Assembly (NCBI GenBank): GCA_037042185.1 | Contig: JAXQJY010000030.1 | Location: 1,240,001-1,304,000, forward strand | Direction: 5' to 3' | DNA from: Sordariomycetes sp. S80-01Y | Taxonomy: Eukaryota; Ascomycota; Sordariomycetes | DNA: 64,000 nucleotides | Part shown: positions 15,158 through 58,664 of the stretch, in pieces | Layout of the letters: each line of letters starts with the position of its first letter | How positions within the stretch are numbered: the first letter of the stretch is position 1 | Made by a program: the position numbers and the translations under genes | The notes under the pieces: model-generated | Database searches by the model: none | Seen by the model: the letters and a program-made list of their open reading frames with translations, nothing else | Told to the model about the DNA's origin: nothing

Positions 15158-17886
15158 CTAGCGTTGTCCTGCAGGCGGTGGGCCTCTGGGTTGCTGAGGC
15201 TGCGGCGGCTCGCGGATCGTAGGGGATGTAGCGCTGCCGGGATCACCATACGTACGCTGGCCGAAGGAGGGACGGCCAGTCTGGGCTTCCTCGTCGAAAA
15301 GCTCACGGCGGCTGTGCGTGGGCGAGATTGGGGACTGCATGGCGGCTTGCTGGCTCTCCGTGAAAGAGGGGATGCTCTCGCCTGCCTTGCGGCGGCCGCG
15401 GGTGCTAGCACGTCGAAGGAGGTCATTTCGGAGGCCCTCGATATCACGGCTGCGTTGGGAGGCGTCGCGGGCTAGGTCGCTGCCGAGCTTGCCGCCTTCC
15501 CACAGACCGCCCTCAGCTTGCATCTCGGGTACCGGAGCGCGAGCGTTGATGCCTGAAATAGCGGCCTCTTCTTGCTCTTTGGCCTCATCGGCGTTGGAAG
15601 GTGGGGGAACGAGGCGAGCCTCAGCCTTACCGCGAGCAGACTCGTCGCGAGACTTGGCAGCCCAGTCATCGGTCACGGCGACAGAATAGGTAGGGTTTTG
15701 AGGTCCACCCAGAGCGTCGCCGCCACCCCCAGGGCCGTAGATGGGAATCTTCTTCAACGCAAGAGCCAGGGCGCACATGAATTTGGAACGTCGCTGAGCC
15801 TTGACCATCCCATTGTGCCAGTTAGATTTGTGTAGAATAGAGATTTGAAGCGTGAGCTTATCGAGCGAGCCGACACTGCCAACGCCGATGGTGAAGTCCG
15901 GCTTGAAGTCACGGGAGTTGTCGGGATGGCGAACGAACATCTCCATCTCCTGGCGAAGGAGCTCGATATCCTCAAAGGATGTGTCAAAGGAGACGTCGAT
16001 TTCGAAGCTTTCGTACATGGCCTTGGAACGAGAGATGTTGTCAACCCAGTAGTTGTTCAGCTGGATGTTGGGAATCTAGGTAATGTCAGCAAAGCCCAGC
16101 TCAGTTCACTTAAGTAACATACCTGAGAAATCTGCTCAGTATCTGTGCGGGAGAAGACAGAGTACAGCAAAGAAATGCGCTCAACGATGAGCTGCGTATC
16201 GTTAATGACGACACGGTCGCCAACGTCGTAAGGGTGCTTGACAAAGAGGAAAATGCAGGAGCCCAAGAATTCCTGACAAGTGACGGCAAAGATGAAAGAG
16301 AGAGAGAGCAGCGTGGTACCAGCACCAGCAATAACAGTGACGAAGCTGCTCTGGAAGAAGGCGAGGAAGATAAAGACGACGATGAGGAGGACGACGAAGA
16401 GAAGGACCTTGTCGAAGGCGCTGAGTGCCTGACCAATATCCTTCATACCCTCGCCGATGGCCTTACGCTCCTTGCCGATGTCGACGACCTTGCGGATCAT
16501 TTCGTCGAGGGAGATGTCACCGTTCTCGTCGTTGTCGATCATGTAGAATGCTTCCTCGGCTTCCTTCTTGTAGGCAGGACCAAGAACCTCGAAGACATCA
16601 TCAATGTCCAGAGATTCCTTGCCTTCCACGACGAAGGACATCCAAATGCGGCGGGCCAGGGCTTCGGACGACCTGAGCTTCTCGAGAGCCTGCAGAACGA
16701 TGGAGTGGGCGGAGTTGGGGTTGAAGACCTTCTTGCCGGTGATTTCAGAAGCGATGTTACCGAAGGCAGAAGTGACCTTGCCTCCAAAGCGACCAACATC
16801 ACCAACGACGTCGCCCACGAGCCTCATTGGAGTGGCACTGCCTGACTTGCCCCTAGAGTGTTTGCCGCCAAGCACAAGCTCGAGGCTATCATTGATGACC
16901 ATATCCTCCTCGGAGAACTCCGGGCAGTACATGGGGAAGAGGGCGCGAGACGCATCATAGAGAACTCCCAGCAGATGGATTTCCCTCTTGGACTCCTTGA
17001 TGCGCAGAGCGAACGACCGTTGGTGATATGAGACACCAATGATCTGAACAATTGCCTTCTCACCCAGGAACACAGCAGATGACACAAACAGGGCTCCCTG
17101 TATGGTCTCCAATGTGCGAACCCAGCTAACCCCGTCGTTGTAGGATCTGCTGAAAAGGTTCCGGAAAGTGAGCCAGACAGCGAGCGCCCAGAAGAAGAGA
17201 GACAGGGGAATAGACAGATTGGCGAGGACCTGGCCGTACTTGCGTGTCCCAGAGCTCACTATGCCTGAGAAGAACATGAAGAGCTTGGGGATGAACCATG
17301 CCACGAGCTTGGCAAGCCATACTGTGCACCAAGTGACCTCGATCCAGAGGAACAAGCGCCAGAGCGAAGGGCCCGGTTTGTAATTTTCTTCGTCATTCGG
17401 GTCACCAGAGTTACCAACGAGGATCTTCTCGCGTTTGCCCATCACGGGCAGGACGACGAGGGGGATAGCGAGGAAAAAGGCAACCGGAATGATGTAAACG
17501 AGGTACCGCGAGACGACCGAGAAGCTTATGATCTTGTAGTAGAGGCGACCCATGAAGTTGAGCTTCGCTCCACCCTCCTCATCTTCGCCTTTGATTTCTT
17601 TACGCCCCAGGCTATCATCCTTCCTCTGTCGGCGGCCACGATGGCGGTGGAACGGGTTGTGCTGATGATGGTGCTCCTTCTCCCCAGCCGTGGAGTCGAC
17701 GCTGCTCGAGTGCGCCATGTTGGCCTTCCTAGCGCCGGTAGAACGGTGGGAAGCCTGGCTTCTGACCTGGGTCAGTTGGATACCGTCGTCGGGAGGCATG
17801 TCGTTGCGGGCTCCTCCACCAGAGAGTTGGACGAAGCCTGAGTTTCTGGATGAGAGCGAGTGTTGTCTGCCGGGCATGCCAGGCAT
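15158..17886 (-). CDS. EF-hand mechanosensitive ion channel (MscS family, Msy1/Msy2 type)
   Basis: Two exons (16123-17886 and 15158-16075) with a 47-nt intron (16076-16122; donor GTATGT, branch CTGAC) give 893 residues. Fungal MscS channels of this type sit in the ER or internal membranes and, in fission yeast, limit calcium and volume changes after hypo-osmotic shock. A hydrophilic, His-rich N terminus precedes several membrane spans (from about residue 125). An EF-hand (DNDENGDISLDE, in the segment AEEAFYMIDNDENG) lies between spans, and the last spans carry the MscS core with PYDVGDRVVIN. The C-terminal domain continues across the intron (QIS-IPNIQLNNYW) and ends in a Pro/Gln-rich tail. 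A TATA-like box lies 566 nt upstream and the leader between has no ATG, so the start at 17886 is well supported. Confidence 0.93.
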
Positions 17887-18451
17887 GGTTCAAGTGAATG
17901 AGAAAGAATGTTCAAGCAGCCTCCCCGGGAATAGGAGGACGCCCAGGGGCTAGCGGAGCTGGTGGTAGGTAGCGCCTGGGATGGTGGATCTGCGGGGCCA
18001 CGATTCGTCGTCAATTCGTGCTCGGTGGGAGGACGACGTCTTGGTGCTTTAGCTGAATGCACCCAGGTTCCAACGGGGACCGCTTTGGGTGGCACCACCG
18101 TCGATCGATTTGCGAGTGGGCGTGAAGAGCCTGGATATCGAGAAGGTCGTCGATACACGTAAAACGGACCGCGATGGGGTGCTGCCGTGTCAGGTCGATG
18201 CTTGAAGACTGACGGTACTTCGTTGCCAAGTAAATGTCGGGCCGTATGGCGCGGGTGTTGATGAAGATCCTAGGAAAAAGATACAGCTCAAAGAAACGCA
18301 AAGCCAAGCCCGATGTTGGGGGCCAGTGTCGGGAGTATCCAAGCGAGAGTTGGTTGAGCGAGTGAGTGTGACGGTGAGGTAAGAAAAGAGAGAAACGAGG
18401 AAAATCCAAGAAACAGTAGTCGTAGGAGCAGCCAGACACGGGACCCCGTAG
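17887..18451 (-). promoter_or_regulatory. Probable long ATG-free 5' leader of the MscS gene
   Basis: Read on the minus strand, these 565 bases contain no ATG and are CT-rich near the upstream end. They start just after a TATAAG at 18452-18457. About nine ATGs would be expected by chance. This fits a long untranslated leader ending at the MscS start codon. Confidence 0.55.
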
Positions 18452-18457
18452 CTTATA
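18452..18457 (-). promoter_or_regulatory. TATA-like box for the MscS gene
   Basis: TATAAG on the minus strand in the context CCTATAAGC, followed downstream by a CT-rich stretch typical of fungal transcription starts. Confidence 0.4.
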
Positions 18458-20086
18458 GGTCTTGAAGGTGTTAGACGGTCTACTGTAGGTCTAGACTAGA
18501 GGCTTAGGCGCGCGAGGTGAGGGCGTAAGGGACTGCGGACGCGTACTTGGTGCTGTAGGGGCCGTGTTGGTGAGGGCGAGCGTTCATGAGAGAGAAGAAT
18601 TGGAGCCGCGGTCGGAGAGATCATCATTCTTGGGTTGGTGCAGCGCAGCGCAGTGCCACCGGCAGTGGGTCGTGCGGGAGGCGTTCAGGGGTCCCGCTGT
18701 CACGGCGAGTCGCTCTGTCCATTTGGCTCTCTGTTCCAATTGGGTAGCGCGACCCAAGGGCAGCCGCGCCTCGGTTTCACAATGGCGCCTCGCAGTCAGA
18801 ATTAGGGGCTCCTTTCACCTGGAAGAGACTTCAGAGAGAGAGGCGTGCCAATGCTGTTGCGCTGAAGGGTCCGAGACAAGCTTCGCTGATCGCCAAAAAC
18901 ACTGGAGTTGGCCCTCCGCTGTTCCAGCAGAACTCGCAGCGTAATCGAGATCAGATCTACCGCCCAGAGATCGCACGCGGATTTCTCGCACGATCTCGCT
19001 TGCTCCCCAAGCTCTCCTCTGCAGACCCCTGTCGCCTGCCGCGTATGCAGATCGTATTGGGGCATTCGAACAAAAGCTGGCCCAGCCCCTATTTTCCACT
19101 TTGTCCACCCAGCGCAGACATGAGCATTGAACACGTCGACATGGCCCGAGGACTCTGACCACGAGCCTTCCGTTCTCCAAGCCATCCACTGGAATTCGGA
19201 TGCAGGAGGTGGCTGGTCTTAGTCTCCCACAGACTGCTTTCCCTACTCCTAGCCCTGCCTTAGCGCAACGCCACGAACCCAGCGCTGACGCCAACTTGCA
19301 TCATCACTGAAATCTTTTTTTTCAATAGGGGTGGGAGGGCGACGAGAGTGTTGCTTCGTATTCTGCATGCGCGGGGAAGCAATTCCGACCCTGGTGAACT
19401 CTCGCTGGAACGCGACATCGACTTCCCATCATCATGCTCTAATCAGCTCTGATTTCGTCAATGCGGTCCCAGCCGGGAAAGATGGCGCGGGCGTTTCGCG
19501 AAACGTAATACCTACAATCACGTAGGACAACCCCAAACCGGTGGTGCAAACACTATTGCTGCCACTGGTACGGCGTTGCCCCTTGATTCCACTCGAAACG
19601 GTACCCGCCAAAGACGCCACCGCAGACCACTAAGGACTAAATGGGATGGGAACACAACGGTCTGATCTGAAACGATTTTCCGTCTACCAGCATAACGATC
19701 TCCATGCCAAAGAAGCGTCGATCAAAGAGATTGAGCAACCATAACTGGTAAATGGGACTTAATGAGATTATATCTATATCATGACCGGGTTTATCCATAT
19801 TTAGGTAAGGTAGTGATTGCAGCTGCCGCCTAGTCTAGATACTACTCAGTCCGCCCCGAAGCTTTAATATACGGAGTACTGGAAGCCCGGCAAAAGGGGG
19901 GAGGCGTATCAGACCAATTGGGCCGTAAAATCCATAAAATATCCAAGGTATCATGAGTGCACGCTCGTCCCAATGCCCGAATGCCCGAATGCCCAGCTCT
20001 CAAAATAGAGCACAAACTCCTTGTATCGAAATGCATCGCTTGTCCCTTTGGTGCCGTATGTGCGGGGTATCCTTCTAATGACAAGT
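18458..20086. other. Intergenic region upstream of the MscS gene
   Basis: Distal promoter of the MscS gene and 3' flank of the sugar porter gene. It includes the short motifs TTAGGTAAGGTAG (about 19801-19813) and TACGGAGTAC (about 19871-19880), each echoed elsewhere in the window. No coding capacity is recognised. Confidence 0.5.
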
Positions 20087-41515: not shown

Positions 41516-44500
41516 CGTGGCGGTGCTGATGATATTCCGCCGTATGATACGATGTTAGAGAAAGTGGGTAAAGTTCGGTGTAGCCTTGAGGCAGTGATGC
41601 TGCTGGTTCGGTTGCCTTGGGCGGAGTGTGTGAGGTTGAGCGGAAGCTTGGAGATGCTGCGTCAGACAGTCACCGACGATGGCGGGGCTGGGGGGCCGTG
41701 GGGGAGCTCCAACCTTGGCTACCCTGTAGCCGGGACTCGCTAGAATTGTCATGTGACGTCTGCGAGCTGTTGATTTCTTGTGAAGGCCAACAGGGTGCGG
41801 TGCTGATTTTTTGTTCTCGTCGTGCTTTTCCTGCATGTTTATGGCTATAGGACCTGTGCGCAAGTCCCTAACGAAAACAGTCGATGCTGGTCGCACCATC
41901 GGAAAACTCAACTTCCCAAATGGAAAGATTTTGTACCGAAGATCGTGAACATGAAACCATCCCCTAATGTAAAGGCTGCACCTCACGTAAAACAAATGAA
42001 AACTCACTGAGTACCCAGAAACTAAACACAATCAATAGAACTAAAATATTTGGAAGTCTTGACCCATGTCTGTATCAAGACTGACCACCAAATCCCCAAG
42101 CTCACATTACATACCTCCAGCTATCCTGTCAACCAGAGACGAATAAGTCACGATAAAGCTCGATACGCGATCCCAACAAGGTCTCTCGTATATTGCTCGC
42201 TGCTTACATCATTACGAGAGTGTTGCTCTCCATGAATAGATGAAAACCTGAAGGAGGAAGTCTGTCATCCAATGACCGCTGAAGTTCTAATCTGCACGGG
42301 GTGTATACATCCATGAGGGTGATCCCGCGCCAGCGGCAACACGCAAGGGACGGCTTCCTACAGCTGCCAAATCCGTCATAGGGTGTTTGATAGAAGCAGG
42401 AACCTGAACGAGTGGAAGTAGACTGCCCTTTTTGAGACATTGGCAACGGACGACTACAATGGCTGATGCCCGTTTAAGCATCTCTCCCCTTTAGTTCACT
42501 GTTGAAAACAGTTAGGGATAACATCTCACTACTCGTATAGTAACCGTTCCAGCGCCAAAGTCACCGTCGCTATGGTTTCCACCCGACCGTGAGGGCACCG
42601 CTCGCTTCCTAGGACGCTAAGCCGCAGATCATCTTTCCAGAGGACCGCTTACCCAATTCGGGATCCTGGTCGTGAGCCGCCGCGAGTCGTCCATTTACAC
42701 CGTATGGGGCCCTGGAACCCTTCCGGACGGTACGGAGCCTGGTCAGGAAAACCGGAGAACCGTCAGGCAAGGCGGGACAGAAATGACGGAGGGCCAGGCC
42801 GTAAAAATTTTAAGATTGCCCCTACGGATGGTGCCCTCCCAAAGCGCCAGGGCTACGAGGCTACGGAAGCGCATCCCCGGTTTGATTGCGGGAGACGGGG
42901 CCTGACGGAGCCTGACGGCGGAATCCATCCCCGGTGGAGTGCTGAGAAGTGTTGACCAGACTCTTGGGATCTGGGGTTGACCCAGGGTCTCGAAAAGTGT
43001 TGAATCCTCGGTAATTAATCAATGAAGAGAACTTTGACACGCTGGTGACTGGACCTGATCTGCGTTCCTTGCGATGACACCGTACGACGAGAGGATGTCG
43101 CTGGAGAAGAGGCTGTCGGCACTTGTCTACTGTAATTAGCTTCATGGGAGATCCTCCTGAGCCTGCTCGAGTCGTGATGGTTGAAATTGATGCGACGGTC
43201 CTGCCTGGTCGCCCTTATGACGCTAGGCGCTGCTGAGGACTTCTATCGCTGCACTGGGGGTGGCCCGCGCCAGGATTCAAGCCGTCACCGTGGACACAGG
43301 GCCGCATCCAGGGAAAACCCCAACAACGACTCCAAAGGGCACCAGCAATCATGCCATGTGCTGCAGCTGCAAGGCTGCGCCTGAATTGCAAGGAAGCACC
43401 TGGCATGGTGAACGATGAAGCCACGTTCTGACATCCATGTTGCTTTGTGACAGCTCCCAGCCACGATCCCCTATCGACGCCCTCAAACGCCAGGGTTTCA
43501 GAGTTGCGAGTGATGCTGGCATGACACCAAAAACACTCCGAAGATGCTGGCACGACCTTCAGACGCTGCGAGTTCCAAGTTTAAAAATACGAAGGCGGAT
43601 GTGGAATGGAAGCCGAGGATTGTGTGTTGAGCGACGCGCCAGTTTGCGTTTATGATGGCTGAGACTAATGCAGGAACAGCCGAGGGATGTGTGGGATGGA
43701 TGTCCTTCGCGTCGCCAGCGAATTCATGCCCACATCTGCTAGCACTGCGCTACAAGGAATCCGAGTGAGAGTATTGTGTGCCGCTGCGGCCTTCCAATGT
43801 CAAAAGCAATGGCTGCCTACCTCGTTAGCTTCAGCGACAGATTCCAGGTCTCTTTTTCAAAGTCCCCATCGCGAGTCAAGCTCGCAACCTCACCCTCCCG
43901 CAGGCCATTTTCCGGCCGATAGGTGCCAAATTGCATGCCAGTGTCATTTACTGCAGCCCCCCAACGCCCAACGAGTCAGACGTCAAACGGTGCTCGCCTG
44001 GAGGTACTTCCACCTCGCACTGTCTCACACCCCCCCTTCCCCTGTCCGCCCTGTGATTGATGATCCTGGTGACCTTCCAGAAGGCTTCCATTATCTTGAC
44101 AGGAGCTCGCACAGGGTACGAGGAACCTCGCCTCACCGAGCTGACCACATCCTTGTCACCGGCAACGATTCCGCCTCAGACCCAGCTTTTCACCACGCGA
44201 CGCAGAGCAGCGGTCGTGCCTCGGTGGACGCCTGCGAATGGGTCTTTGCTGTGTTCTTGGAAGCTCACGTACCCTCTCCGTTGGGCTATCGATGGCTCCA
44301 TGTGCCCAAGGCGATACCGTCACCAGATCCGGGTGTCTGTCTTTCACCAAGACAACAGCTCAGGCGCTATGTTTCTGGATAGGCGACGACTGGTCCCTTT
44401 CGTCAGCAGTCGCCTAGGTCAAAGGCTGGACCCTCAAACAGGCCAATCTCAGCCTTTGCTCAACCATGAACCAGGGAGCCCAGTCGTCTGCCGAGGATGC

Positions 44501-47072
44501 CCAAATAGGTCCGAGGTGATTTCCACGTGTTCAACATGTGCCGACTATTCCCAATGGCCGACTTCATGCATTGCTGACCGGAGCAGCGGAAACGCGATCG
44601 GCCCGCTTCAACGTCTCGATGTGGTTGCACGACCACAGACTACACTCTCAAAGGCAAGTGTCGCCTTTTCTCTGGCGCCTTGTGCTCTGGTCTTGGTAGA
44701 CACGCCGTTGGAGGAAGCCCTGGCCTTGTAAGCCGGAACCGCCTTAGTCTTGACACGGTGTAGAAGGCTTAGGATAGCTTGTCCTGCCAATAATCGTATG
44801 TTTGAGACGACTTCCTGGTAAGTGGATGGACTGTGGAACCTGCTTAGCGAGGTCATATCGTTTCGGCACTCATATGGTCATCTGCTTGGCCATAGCCACG
44901 GCCGGTCCTCTAGGCAAATGATAGCTAGTTGAAGGAAGAAGTGCCGCATCGTACCATTTGATATCTATTTATGGCCTAGGACCCGAACTAAAGTCTCCCC
45001 CCTATGCAGCAGAGGGCCACTCTGATCAGCAGCTCATGTGGCTACAGGATTCAGTTACATACCTTTCCGGGTTCGTGTTCCTGATGGTCGTAGAATGAGC
45101 CATTCTGAGCTCTTCTCAGCTGATGGCGAAGGATTGTGCCTATGGGCCGAGCTGCGAGGACAAAGACGGAAATCGAACGGGGCAACTCTTTCTGAAGGTA
45201 AGATCGCGTTTCGCTAGGCTGACTGGTCACGGGAACTGCAACAAATCTAGAAGTCGATCTATGCCATGGTTGCTAACGCTGCCACAGAAGCGCGGTTGGC
45301 TTTGAATCCTCACAGCAACAGAGCGCATCAAGACCGAGTAACAGTGCTGACGAGATGTCGTGAGACATTGGTGGTTATGCTACTACGAGTATGAGGGGCC
45401 CGATATCCCTGGGCAGCCGCTTCGAAGTAAAAGTTGCGAGGGAATACGGGGTACTAGAGTAAAAATTGGACCAAACACGGTGTTGCGCATAACTTCCTTC
45501 GCATCCGCGACCAGCAATTGGCATGGCTTCGCAGGCCGTGGAACGGTCAGATTGGTCGCACCAGTTCAAGTCGCAGACAAATGACAACCGTTTGTCTTTG
45601 ATCGACAGCCCGACTCGCCGTGGCTAGTGGCTGTCAAAGCTCCTGGACCTATTTCGAGAAAGCGACACAGCCAGCGCACGGCATATTCTGCCCGTCATGC
45701 TTGTGGTTAGCTGAAGGCATGATGCTGCCACAGCATGCGGAGATTTGTCAACTGTGTGGAAAGTTTGTAAAGACCGTCATACGGGTTGGGAGGCTTGTTC
45801 GTGTCGGTAAGCCGGTCTATTAAAGCGGAAGGTCCGGGCGCCGCCTCTCGAAACGGACGCAATGGAAATGGCTTGCCTGGGCGGTGTCCTGTGGTTGAAA
45901 ATGGACCGCGGACGACGACGTATACGAGGTTGGGAGGAACCGCGAAGCCATCAACAGGCTATAGAGAGCTGTCACACACGAAACATGGTTTCGCGATTGG
46001 AACTGAATCACGTCGGAAGCGCAGGCCGTTGCCTAACGACATCATGACGCGCCGGAGACGGTGTTTTGCCAGGGTCTAATGACACGCCACGGCGTTTTGA
46101 GAGTCAAGTGCCTGCATGATCCCACGTTTTTTTCCTGTCCGAGGAAGCTGACGGTGGTGGAAACCATGGAGACAGCCGCCCAGTTTGCTCAGCCCAGCTT
46201 GTAGCCGCTGGCAGGCCACGCCTCGCAACAAGAGCGTCAGGGCATCGCACCCAAACGCCTTTCGTCAAGATTTTCCCACGACTTTCGGCAGGCAGCTGGC
46301 CTGGCCCCGACCAACGTGCGCAGTGACAGCTGGGATCGCGGGCGAAAGCAAAAAGAAGATTGCGGCCCCCTGTTCCAGAAGCCCTGACTTGTGAACTTTG
46401 CACGCCAAACGAGACTTGGTACCTTACGGGCACGGTGTCGCTCTGTTCCGGCGCTAGCCCCTGGCGTCTTTCTTGGGGGAATCAGGGGCACCGCCAGGCC
46501 GGTACGAGCGCGACGCCAACAGAGTCCGCGAGATTTGAGGTACTGTCTGCACAGTGCGGCGTGACAGGCGGGCCCTCTCTGCCCGGTGTTTTGGGCTGGG
46601 CGGATCAGCACGCATTTCACCCAGACCCCTGCTGATTGCATCCGTCGGTACGGACGAGGCATGGATGGCCTGTGACGGGGCGGTTTAGCCTGTGTGCGCG
46701 CCTCCCTTGCCTTGTCTCCTTTCATTCCCAGCACCACCAGGCACCGCGAGGCACCGCACCCTTCTGGGCCCCTGTCCCGGTGCCAATTTGCTTTTTCGTC
46801 CCTTCCCAGCCGCTGGAGCTGTCACTCAGCGCTCAGGCACGCCGGTGCCAGCATCAGAGAGATCATTAATCCACCGGGTACCTGGTACCGGCGCCGTTAG
46901 CCAGGTTCCTTTTCTGGGGGGGACCTTCATGGTAAATTACCTGACTTGTACGTACTGTACCGGCTTTTGCGGTGCTGGGAGCGCCGCCGCTGCCAGTGTC
47001 AGTGCCAGTGCCCGTCAGTGCCAGTGCCAATGGTGACGGAAGCCCCCTTCCACTTTCCTTTTGAATCCTCCT
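41516..47072. other. Gene-poor interval, upstream half
   Basis: About 5.6 kb without a recognisable gene, between the ARPC5 start and the micropeptide transcription unit. Open frames are short or lack protein-like composition. 42.0-42.5 kb is AT-rich. 42.7-42.95 kb is rich in CGGA/CCGG words. 46.7-47.0 kb is GC-rich with GGCACCG and CAGTGCC repeats. I see no tRNA, rRNA or transposon. It may be an extended regulatory region. Confidence 0.5.
46995..47033. repeat. Cluster of CAGTGCC heptamers
   Basis: Several near-tandem copies of CAGTG(T/C)C within 40 bp, about 45 bp upstream of the TATA-like box at 47073. The same AGTGCCAG core recurs at 50113 downstream of the transcription unit. Confidence 0.6.
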
Positions 47073-47080
47073 TATACAAA
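47073..47080 (+). promoter_or_regulatory. TATA-like box of the micropeptide transcription unit
   Basis: TATACAAA in CTCCTTATACAAAAAGC, followed by a long CT-rich tract from 47090 that resembles fungal transcription-start regions. Confidence 0.5.
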
Positions 47081-47747
47081 AAGCTGCCATCTCGCTCCAT
47101 TCCTTCCTTCCCTTTTGTTTGAGTCCACTTTGCCCTCTTTAGATCTCTCGCGTCTTCAACTTTCCTCTCTCTTGCATCTACAGCTCCATCTACACTAATC
47201 ATAGCCTCGCGGCGCATATCCATCCCAACCAACTACTCAGTACCTCACCTCGTCTCGACGCGACTACCTCGGCCCAGAAGCTACTCCTCCTACTGCTAGC
47301 TGTGCTGCTTATTGACCACTCGACGCTGGCACTTCTCGCAATCGATTCTCGATATCAGACACTCGATCCAGATCCGGAACCAGACCCAGATCCCTGGATA
47401 CACGACCGTTGCGCCAGGCTAGAAGCTCCGACCTTCTCGCATCACGACCCTTGTACCACTCCTACGACAGCTTGAGTAGCATTCTTGTGTGCCTCATCTG
47501 CGACAGTCCTCGTCTCGTGTCGCCTTTCTCCACGCTTCGGTGCCGATATTCTCGCCTCCATCACGTCCATCGCTTCTCGCCTCAGCTGCCTCGACCATAC
47601 ACCCAATATTATTGGTGACTCTCGCAACAAGACCGGCCTTTGGCTGCTTCCTCGGTTCTTCTCTGCACCTACCACTCCTTTAGTACGCCTAGCCGCCTCC
47701 ATCTCGTGAGGTTGTGTTCCTACCGTCACACCAAGACGACTGAGCTG

Positions 47748-47898
47748 GTGAGTCAACTTTCGCTTCTGCCGTCTATTCCCCCGTGGCTGCTCGCTGTCTG
47801 ATGCCAACTTTGGGCATGCTGGCTTGCATGGGGGCCGATAAATAAACCCGGTTCTCCAACCTCCTTTTCTGAACTTGAGCTAACGTAGCATCTTCCAG
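47748..47898 (+). other. Predicted 5'-UTR intron (151 nt)
   Basis: Donor GTGAGT at 47748, branch GCTAAC about 15-20 nt before the acceptor TTCCAG ending at 47898. It carries the only ATGs (from 47801) between the promoter and the micropeptide start. Confidence 0.6.
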
Positions 47899-47939
47899 AG
47901 CTATATATCGTCCACACTCCTTTACAAAATACCGCCACA

Positions 47940-48032
47940 ATGGTCTCCGGATCCCAATCGAGTCCCATCAACGCCGGTCGTGGCGCATACGACACCACTG
48001 GCGTTGCTAAGCCTCCACCTCGTCCTCGATAA
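47940..48032 (+). CDS. Candidate 30-residue micropeptide
   Basis: A 30-codon ORF starting MVSGSQSSPINAG and ending PPPRPR, stop TAA. The context CCACAATGG is strong (A at -3, G at +4). It is the first ATG of the predicted spliced leader. The peptide has no Cys, no signal peptide and no membrane segment; it has a Gly/Arg/Tyr middle (AGRGAYDTTG) and a basic, Pro-rich end. I do not recognise the family. The AGRG core is faintly like the GRGGAGN repeats of Par32-type fungal proteins, but this is too short to claim. Function is unknown. It could also act as a short regulatory ORF on a longer RNA. Confidence 0.5.
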   Translation: MVSGSQSSPINAGRGAYDTTGVAKPPPRPR

Positions 48033-48930
48033 AGGACGAACATGAATTGGAATATCACTGGCCAACGACATGGACCAACTGCAGCGCCGGCTCGGCTGAT
48101 CTGTCAGTTGTCCCCGTTCGTGCTCCACGAGCACGGCTACTCACGAACTTCGCTTCTGTTCAAACGACCATTTTTTTTTCGATTACCATCATCTTAATAT
48201 TGGAGGACGAACTGCTTCGACAAGTACGACCCCGACCTCAGGCGTCCTCGCAACACACCTAATTCGCCACTATCCGCCCATTTTGGGTCGTACCTCCCTT
48301 GCTTCCCAGCAGCAGCGATCAACGAAAGGGAGGCTCCGGCAACAACATCTATCGACGGACCTTATGCGCGAATGCTCTTCTTCTTTTTTGGGTCTTACTT
48401 CTGGCGTTCTGAAGATTGGTCACGGCGTTCGACTATAGAAAGGGGACCTGCTTTTTACACGGTCTCAAGACGCTTCGGAACTAGCTGAGCTCCTGGCAAA
48501 CTCGCGACCAAAATGGAGCGTTCACATACGCTACGCCTCACCGTCACGGCCTTGAGCTAGCTCTGGGGATTCGAACGAAGAAGAGATCTAGTCCTCGCGG
48601 ACGCTGTTTCATATTATTGCACCAACTGTATTTCGGGACAAGGGAAAAGCTGGATTGATTTTGCATATAGACTTTGGCTTTGTGTTTGTGTTCTGCTTCT
48701 TCACAAGCTCGATTTTTGGTTTGATTCAGGCTTTCCTCGCGGGTGCCGGCAATAATCGTTGGATTTCCTTTTCCTTATCGTGTTCACAAGATGGGCGGGT
48801 TGTTGGCTGCGCTACCGTCTGGAAAAAAAGAGGTGGTTACAGAGCGCGCTTCAATAGCGACGCTGTGGCACTGGGCTGGACTCAGGAAGACGACGGAAAG
48901 ATACCCCCCTGTTCTACATAACTAGACTGT

Positions 48931-51290
48931 ATAGATAGTTTCGCCCTACGAGGGTACCGGCAAACGGTTCAGCAATGGAAGCATTTTCCCGACGTCCGCT
49001 CCCGTCTACGACTCAGACTTGTATTGGTGCCTCCAGCATCCAAAGATATCCTCTCCCCATCACCCTGCATAGGGGCGCTTGATGTAGGTTGGCGGACCTG
49101 TCACTTGCTGAGGCCGGGACGAACCGTGCCTTTGGAGGGTTGTCGTTGGTGGACCGGTTGTTGGCTGCGACCCTGCGCAATGTTTGTTCTGTCGCTTTCT
49201 TTTCCTCTGGGGGCTTGATTTATCATCTGATTCGATCGAGACATCAAGACGGCGCCGGGAGAAGAGCGCTAGCGGACGGGCAGGCAAGGCCGATGCAATG
49301 CGGGCCGTTGCTTTTGCATGTTCCTGCGCCCATCCGTCCCAAGGTTTCCCATCTTCGGATTTGTCTGTCCCTCTGTCGTTGGGAAGCGACACGTCAAAAT
49401 GACCTATTTATTTCGGAGGGGTTCTGCGGCTTCGCGTGTTTGCTCTTCGCGCTTCAGGGGGCGGCGCAGACCACGCCGGCGGAAGACCCAGGCCTGGACA
49501 AAAACGCGCGCTGGCTTGCCGGAGAAACACACCACACACTCACACGCACACACACTACAAAAAAAAGGGAGGGCGCTTTCTCGGCGCGGTGCGGTCCCTT
49601 TCGCGGGGTTGCTTTTTTTTCGCGGGGCCTTCAATTAGTAGGGGCGGGATGTGCACAAGCAAGGAGGGCCGCAGGAACATCAGATCAGACGTCCGATGAC
49701 GAGGAGGTGGTGGTATATTTTTTTTCTCAAGAGGCTGCATGATGCACCGGATCGAACCGTGCGCCGCAGCGCAGCGCAGCGCATTGCATGACGCAGGAGC
49801 AGTCAGGTTGCATGAGGCTACGTACCTTACCTTACCTAAGTGGTAGCGCAGCGCAGCAGCGCCGTTTCTTTTGGGCTCCCGTTCCTCTGGCCTCCCTGAT
49901 TTCCTGTTACGGCTGTCTGTGCTCTGCCGCGACACGGCGGCCAGCGGCCAAACGGCCAAACGGATGGAAAGGTCATCCAGCCCGGGACAGTGCGAGCCTG
50001 AGCGTCGGATGATGGGGGAGCGAAGGCATTCGGGTCGTCCGAGAGGGGAGGGCATGTGCCAGACGTGTTTCTCGTGGGACCGGGGAATTGATGGCCGCTA
50101 ATGCAACCCCACTGGCAGTGCCAGACTCCTGGGACTGCGGTGGCTCTCAAGCTGGCAGTGGCTCTGGCAGTCATCTCCACTGTGGTGCATTCTCAACTAA
50201 CTTACAGTTCCTTGTCGCGTCTCAGCGCGTCTCGTCGCGAATTGCTTGAATTCGTCCCTCCCTGACCTTTGCGCGCCATCTTCCTTTACGAAGCTGCGTC
50301 TCCCCTCAGGATCAACGGACGGAAAACTCTGTCAGGCGGCAAGTGTGGCAAATCACAATGGAGCTGCCTACGCACTGGCGAGGTTGGTGGACAAGGGTCC
50401 TGAGCAGCCTTGATCCCAGGTCCTACTTTCTCCCCCCGCCCCCTGCCCTTCTAGTTTTGGAGACTTCCCACCGTCTGCCGGGGAATCGGACGACGCCGCC
50501 GCTTGGTCGCCGACTGAAGTTTACGCCGGAGACGAATTCCCCCTCCTTTCGACGGAACAGAGAACTTTCCAGACGCCAGCCCAGGCACGGTACATCATAC
50601 CTTGGCTGCTTGGGCACCCAGATCCCCGGGGTGCCTGGGCCCGAAAGTGCCGGTGGACCTGACGGCTCGCCGGCCGGCATACGCCGGTGGAGCTTCAATC
50701 TGGCGGCATTGCTTTCTCCCAACGGCAGCGGGAACCATGCCTGAGGAGGGGAGAGGGAGGACGCGACGGTTGCCCTTCCCGGACGCTCAGCTAGCCGGCC
50801 GTCTTCCCGCGGTGATACGAAGTCGCGACCTTGGTGACAATGGGGCAGATGTTGCTTGCTTGTTGGTGGCACGATGACGGAGGGCAAGGGGGGGTGGCAT
50901 GTGACTTGCTGGGCATGCACTTTGATCTCCGACGAGGCTGGACAGCTTGTCATTCGCTCGAGCCTGTGTCTCTCGGTCCCGGGAATCCGGTTGGACGTGA
51001 TTGCTCTGCTCTGTAGATGCTAGCGAGCGGCGTGTATCGATATCAATGAGCGCTCTCATCAACACGTCGAGGGCAGCCCCACCACATCCGCTGGCTCTGT
51101 CTCTTCCGCTTCGCAAGCGAGTTCCCAGAAGTCAAAACTTGGTGCATCGGGTCATGATTTGTCACGTTCAGCTACACTATCCTCGGGCGTGGGGTTGCAT
51201 TATCAATGTTGAGCCTGAGATACGGTACATTGCAAGACATCACTGCGTTGGGTTAGCAGGAACGGCAAGACAGAGGAAGAGCTTGATTAC
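48931..51290. other. Gene-poor interval, downstream half
   Basis: 2.4 kb without a recognisable gene, up to the 3' end of the nitrilase-like gene. It holds a CA-rich microsatellite (about 49526-49558), GCGCA repeats (about 49760-49783 and 49845-49860), the motif TACCTTACCTTACCTAAG (49823-49840) and a cluster of GGCAGTG words with the odd palindrome CTGGCAGTGCCAG (about 50110-50180). Confidence 0.5.
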
Positions 51291-58442: not shown

Positions 58443-58664
58443 AAGGACATTCCAGGATTTAGGATTTAGTATCACATGTCGACGTTCGTGGGGAGTAATT
58501 GATCACCGAGTTTTAAACCAAAGTAGCGACGTCTAGGACAATCGATGCATTCCATTCAGACAAGCTCTAGGCATGTTGGCTATCATACAAAAGAGGGCTG
58601 AGTATACTACTAACCCTATGCGCGCGAGTAATGATGAGCAAGGAAAATAGTAGTTCTACACCCT
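58443..58664. other. Short convergent intergenic region
   Basis: 222 bp between the ysh1 and vph1 stop codons. It must hold both poly(A) sites. No other feature is seen. Confidence 0.6.

Follow-up and report, generated by a model that had tools for sequence, protein, structure and literature searches.

A candidate gene for a 30-residue micropeptide behind a long ATG-free leader with a leader intron in a Sordariomycetes genome

We looked at a candidate micropeptide gene at 47073-48932 of a 64,000-nucleotide stretch of DNA from the fungus Sordariomycetes sp. S80-01Y. This whole stretch is called the window below, and positions refer to it unless another stretch is named. The source assembly comprises 30.9 Mb in 16 contigs, and the window sits on a contig of 2.77 Mb. 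ATG gaps, GTRAGT sites and intron signatures were counted in a reference sample of 244 kb from the same genome. The locus, all on the plus strand, is composed of a TATA-like box, a CT-rich leader with an apparent intron, a short open reading frame (ORF) and a downstream region:

47073..47080, plus strand: TATA-like box TATACAAA, recognised from its sequence; presumed promoter element, with transcription probably starting shortly downstream
47081..47747, plus strand: leader exon, CT-rich and ATG-free, as judged from ATG counts against shuffles
47748..47898, plus strand: apparent leader intron of 151 nt, with the splice signals GTGAGT, GCTAAC and TTCCAG
47899..47939, plus strand: second leader piece (exon 2), 41 nt, ATG-free in its sequence
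47940..48032, plus strand: 30-codon ORF with its stop, MVSGSQSSPINAGRGAYDTTGVAKPPPRPR, considered from its start context, an own-genome search and a bacterial alignment
48033..48932, plus strand: probable 3' untranslated region, with no coding-like segment and with AATAAT at 48751
48042..48197, plus strand: 51-codon ORF beginning 9 nt past the preceding stop, in a middling start context (56th percentile) and with nothing that marks it as coding

The box TATACAAA at 47073 and the CT-rich sequence that follows it were found, by reading and by script, where the initial annotation had placed them. That annotation had also described 46935-47800 as free of ATG, which turned out to be wrong, an ATG being present at 47030. 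The presumed leader is unaffected, this ATG being located before the TATA-like box at 47073. The estimate of about thirteen ATGs expected by chance fits the mean spacing of 65 nt in the window, whereas about 8 would be expected in 46935-47800 from the local composition. The mature leader was taken as 47073-47747 joined to 47899-47939, that is 716 nt with the TATA-like box included. It contains no ATG versus 5.9 expected (P=0.0008, 4000 dinucleotide shuffles). Among the 64 trinucleotides, ATG was the second most depleted in the leader, after CCC. GTG and TTG were above the expectation from dinucleotide shuffles, and CTG was near the window rate (12 vs 13.3). Moreover, the 771-nt gap between the ATGs at 47030 and 47801 is the longest on the plus strand of the window and ranks third among the complete ATG gaps on both strands of the reference sample. 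The two complete gaps that exceed it are in repeats, read by eye as of the Pro and Ser/Thr types. A still longer ATG-free run, truncated where the fetched sequence begins, is formed by the first 805 bases of L023, a stretch of the same contig described below. According to an excerpt of PMC7049704, leaders in Neurospora are long and rich in AUG, so that, as far as this excerpt goes, a long AUG-free leader stands out and is not the default. An excerpt of PMC3472292 gives medians of 155 and 259 bases for Sordaria untranslated regions (which kind is which is ambiguous as printed), which would make the candidate leader roughly three to five times as long as the median.

The signals of the apparent intron, which conform to those of fungal introns, were likewise detected by reading and by script: GTGAGT at 47748, GCTAAC, and TTCCAG running to 47898. 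The first ATGs, those at 47801, 47816 and 47828, fall inside it as initially proposed. They are all three ATGs of the unspliced leader, and with the intron retained they would open ORFs of 14, 9 and 5 codons in one frame. An intron signature defined as GTRAGT, CTRAC and YAG in register was found 31 times on both strands of the reference sample vs 14 in shuffles, and its strict form 4 times vs 1. By chance, about 0.03 such sets of signals are expected per 1.1 kb of one strand.

After splicing, the first ATG would be that at 47940, located in CCACAATGG. It opens 30 codons and the frame is closed by a stop at 48030-48032 (MVSGSQSSPINAGRGAYDTTGVAKPPPRPR), in agreement with the initial annotation. 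The predicted peptide is net positive, with a GRGAYDTTGV core and a Pro/Arg tail ending in PPPRPR, and contains no Cys. The start context of 47940 was scored with a matrix built from 57 presumed starts and stands at the 88.5th percentile of all ATGs (score 1.10 vs a mean of 0.54). A single-sequence AlphaFold model shows a short helix at residues 9-14, with a mean predicted local distance difference test score of 78.5 and a predicted template modelling score of 0.32, and was not used as evidence. No paper was found with words of the peptide, and among the listed titles and abstract beginnings on fungal small ORFs or micropeptides, none was recognised as describing this locus.

The layout of the leader was compared with that of other sites in the reference sample. 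Among the GTRAGT sites having 675 nt of upstream sequence, 2 of 146 have these 675 nt free of ATG. One is the peptide locus, and the other belongs to a PSP1-domain gene in L023, a stretch of the same contig some 87 kb further upstream. The main ORF of this gene (L023:1281-3347, C13:1201281-1203347) encodes a protein of 689 residues. In L023:1-1290 (C13:1200001-1201290), the 1016 fetched nucleotides upstream of it are ATG-free once the apparent intron is omitted, with 8.2 ATGs expected. This apparent intron, GTGAGT...GCTAAC...AG at L023 704-967, encloses the single upstream ATG (806); the 689-residue protein starts at the ATG that follows, in GACAATGAG.

A likeness to the predicted peptide was found in a bacterium. 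For this, GTDB genomes were scanned with a degenerate pattern for GRGAYDT[S/T]G that let in a few further residues and was fixed before the hits were seen. The scan returned 21 stretches, whose flanks scored at most 14 against the fungal peptide in 20 cases and 37 in the remaining one, L013. For L013, the flank P against random bacterial flanks is 1.3e-5 to 3.7e-5 per hit, or 2.8e-4 to 7.7e-4 when multiplied by 21. This look-alike small ORF (L013:513-683), identified by the pattern scan and by alignment, lies in the Burkholderiaceae metagenome-assembled genome (MAG) nzgw548, JAHFQJ010000003.1. Its alignment with the fungal peptide spans Met1 to Arg30, with one single-residue gap and identity at 18 of 30 residues, and different codons are used at 14 of the 18 shared residues. 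The aligned ATG is the first start codon of its frame, with a TTG later inside, and the ORF runs 26 residues further. It lies between two genes that we took, by eye, for sdhB and zapD, in an AT-rich host MAG of 32% guanine-cytosine content. The nearest of the available genomes are distant, the presumed zapD being at most 52% identical among the 31 genomes searched. The look-alike ORF was not found in 198 related genomes: 84 of 199 genomes (MAG included) gave a match at E<=1, the best other one at 0.003, and seven other loci from this search showed no likeness by eye. Among 369 genomes of the class of the bacterium (itself included), three passed 0.001: one is the MAG, and the other two (about 5e-4) match the model in its tail only. 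No match was obtained in plasmid and phage collections except for two records of one mycobacteriophage (E 3), and three patterns gave none in viral contigs. As for endosymbiont signs, two ankyrin matches were seen in the MAG; the nucleotide-translocase family was not found there by a search that found none in a control either.

We lean towards homology of the fungal peptide and the bacterial ORF, and the proposal of a gene does not rest on it. A further step, which we put forward tentatively and hold slightly more apt to be wrong than right, is that both belong to an undescribed peptide family, M-x9-N-x-GRGAYDTTGV-x-KPPP-x-PR, present both in a filamentous fungus and in an isolated, AT-rich lineage of Burkholderiaceae, whether through eukaryote-to-bacterium transfer or as an old family missed for its size.

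The candidate lies in a gene-poor interval of 9.7 kb. The genes on either side were identified by Pfam matches:

36.0-38.4 kb, minus strand: alpha-type adaptin gene, left of the locus
39.8-40.7 kb, plus strand: methyltransferase gene, left of the locus
41.2-41.6 kb, minus strand: Arp2/3 p16 subunit gene, left of the locus
51.3-52.1 kb, minus strand: carbon-nitrogen hydrolase gene, right of the locus
53.0-55.0 kb, minus strand: TAF4 gene, right of the locus, one of its two pieces just below cut-off
56.1-58.4 kb, plus strand: CPSF73 gene, right of the locus

Between 41.6 and 51.29 kb, where stop-free stretches of at least 40 codons were scanned, no segment had a codon score above 8.5 bits; those of the flanking genes ranged from 24 (p16) up to 111 (adaptin). 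Ten of the longer ORFs of this interval and the three ORFs adjoining or crossing the peptide ORF gave no Pfam match over cut-off. A RING match of the ORF 44057-44728 was not accepted, being sub-threshold (E 0.028, 15 bits vs a cut-off of 31). A conventional coding sequence in the gap was thus rejected, none being seen by codon score or Pfam, and the candidate transcript, if made, therefore seems to have no larger coding sequence to serve. An origin as a duplicate or repeat was also rejected, as the sole match of the 1860-bp stretch in its own genome was itself (E<=0.01). Rfam gave no match in the window at gathering score and none at E<=1 in 46000-49500. The folding of the leader (z 1.25) and of the 3' part (z 0.77) was no better than that of shuffles, so that a structured RNA was discarded; among 120-nt fold windows, 1 of 27 fell below z -2, at -2.36, over the ORF. 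Telomerase RNA was discarded as well, the template CTAACCCTA being absent from the locus with its sole window match at 58610. A short tandem array of TGCCAG-like units was also observed at 46991-47029, just upstream of the TATA-like box.

If the locus is expressed as its layout suggests, RNA polymerase II would start just past the TATA-like box at 47073, at about 47.1 kb, and splicing of the leader intron would remove the only ATGs between the start and 47940. A scanning ribosome would then travel about 700 nt without meeting an AUG, begin at the well-placed one at 47940, make a free peptide of 30 residues, and stop at 48030. With the intron retained, the three intronic AUGs would come first and their short ORFs could capture ribosomes, so that retention could be an off-state and splicing the on-switch. 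The product would most probably be a short, soluble peptide that binds by way of its core and its Pro/Arg tail, which is a conjecture.

Several observations weigh against a micropeptide gene. The reading of the ATG-free leader, the intron and the ORF as a gene is made at the level of sequence, and the locus was picked for its ATG gap, so that the P-value given above is flattering. The ATG at 48070 has an equally good context (89.5th percentile). Codon use does not distinguish the ORF: among 638 ORFs with 22-45 codons taken from non-coding stretches, 57 score at least as high, its score corresponds to the 32nd percentile among 30-codon windows of long ORFs, and it does not rank among the top 12 coding-like segments of the interval in which it lies. 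The peptide has no paralogue, its one match in its own genome being itself (E<=0.001). That no family was recognised initially was borne out, with no Pfam or NCBIfam family at the thresholds used and no PDB match at E up to 10. The comparator has a large ORF of 689 residues; its intron, as at the peptide locus, is apparent from signals, and its leader length is bounded by the fetched stretch, outside of which the start may lie. When five further long ATG gaps were looked at, only one ran directly into a main ORF: a 700-nt CT-rich stretch on the minus strand at 17886-18587, immediately before a mechanosensitive-channel ORF, which for its part speaks for the main-ORF reading. Of the remaining four, two fall within repeats and two are followed by ORFs of 72 and 74 codons whose status is uncertain. 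Because only one in five opens a main ORF, the telling layout is the ATG-free leader together with a leader intron, on the basis of one comparator and no survey. Regarding the bacterial look-alike, the whole alignment (87 raw, 38 bits) is not significant, about 52 chance matches being expected in the six-frame collection (E about 52), and Pro-rich tails match readily. When the bacterial peptide was used as query on viral contigs, one of 12 stretches with the pattern passed, in a phage-like ORF of 584 residues (L050:4359-6113) that carries FDTTGVPKPP and shares DTTGVPKPP; we judged this likeness to be due to chance. A repeat read by eye as Gly/Pro-type (L035:5551-6830, C2:505551-506830) was also observed to be ATG-free over 1280 nt on one strand.

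The initial annotation had left a choice between an mRNA whose main product is the 30-residue peptide and a regulatory RNA. The mRNA is somewhat better supported, because the main ORF of the comparator starts at the corresponding ATG and because the bacterial small ORF resembles the peptide from its first Met to its last Arg. A spliced long non-coding RNA, or an RNA whose transcription itself matters, would carry the 30 codons by chance; the gene-poor interval and the undistinctive codon use fit such an RNA. However, it gives no reason for the depletion of AUG before one well-placed AUG, an identical layout precedes the main ORF of the PSP1-domain gene, the peptide has its bacterial look-alike, and neither folding nor Rfam gave a sign of a structured RNA, so we consider it unlikely. 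The 30 codons could also act as an upstream ORF that regulates another ORF further along the mRNA, such as the 51-codon ORF at 48042, which begins so close to the stop, or that opened by the ATG at 48070 in its good context. Yet the latter ORF has just 9 codons, the context of 48042 is only middling, 9 nt is very short for reinitiation, and no coding-like segment follows until the minus-strand carbon-nitrogen hydrolase gene at 51.29 kb, which makes this control highly improbable. Finally, the ATG gap, the intron-like signals and the ORF may coincide by chance in intergenic DNA. Overlapping 675-nt windows are ATG-free in 41 of 19,250 cases, 488 kb of shuffled sequence contains 14 intron-like matches, several of the long ATG gaps are followed by no gene that was recognised, and the finding was singled out because it was odd; but several features coincide here in the right order, and we give such a coincidence little credence. 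We thus regard the locus as probably a protein-coding gene for a 30-residue micropeptide, its transcription, splicing and translation being deduced from these signals.

Most fungal annotation applies a length cut-off that excludes ORFs of about 30 codons, and such genes are usually missed. If the gene is real, its leader provides a search rule (a long AUG-free leader, an intron with stray AUGs, one AUG in a good context) that could be applied to any fungal genome to look for more micropeptide genes. Should the cross-domain likeness hold, the core sequence would become a specific functional unit open to testing.

Among known systems, the PSP1-domain gene resembles the peptide locus in its long CT-rich ATG-free upstream sequence, its GTGAGT/GCTAAC intron with the only upstream ATG seen, and the next ATG that opens the ORF; it differs in the size of that ORF, 689 residues vs 30. 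The Burkholderiaceae small ORF is like the peptide at 18 of 30 residues, with the start Met and the final Pro-Arg aligned, but is bacterial and longer by 26 residues. The a-type pheromone genes of Sordariomycetes (mfa-1, ppg2) also combine a tiny ORF with long untranslated parts, the ORF having 20-odd codons and the mRNA measuring about 1 kb. Their precursors end in a CAAX prenylation motif, whereas the candidate peptide ends in PPPRPR, has no Cys and lacks a C-terminal CAAX. With small-ORF or micropeptide genes, the candidate, which is known from sequence alone, shares a short ORF on an RNA otherwise taken as non-coding, and no longer coding sequence was found for the same RNA within the scanned 41.6-51.29 kb. 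The locus would thus work like a small-ORF gene, a membership that hinges on the translation predicted here.

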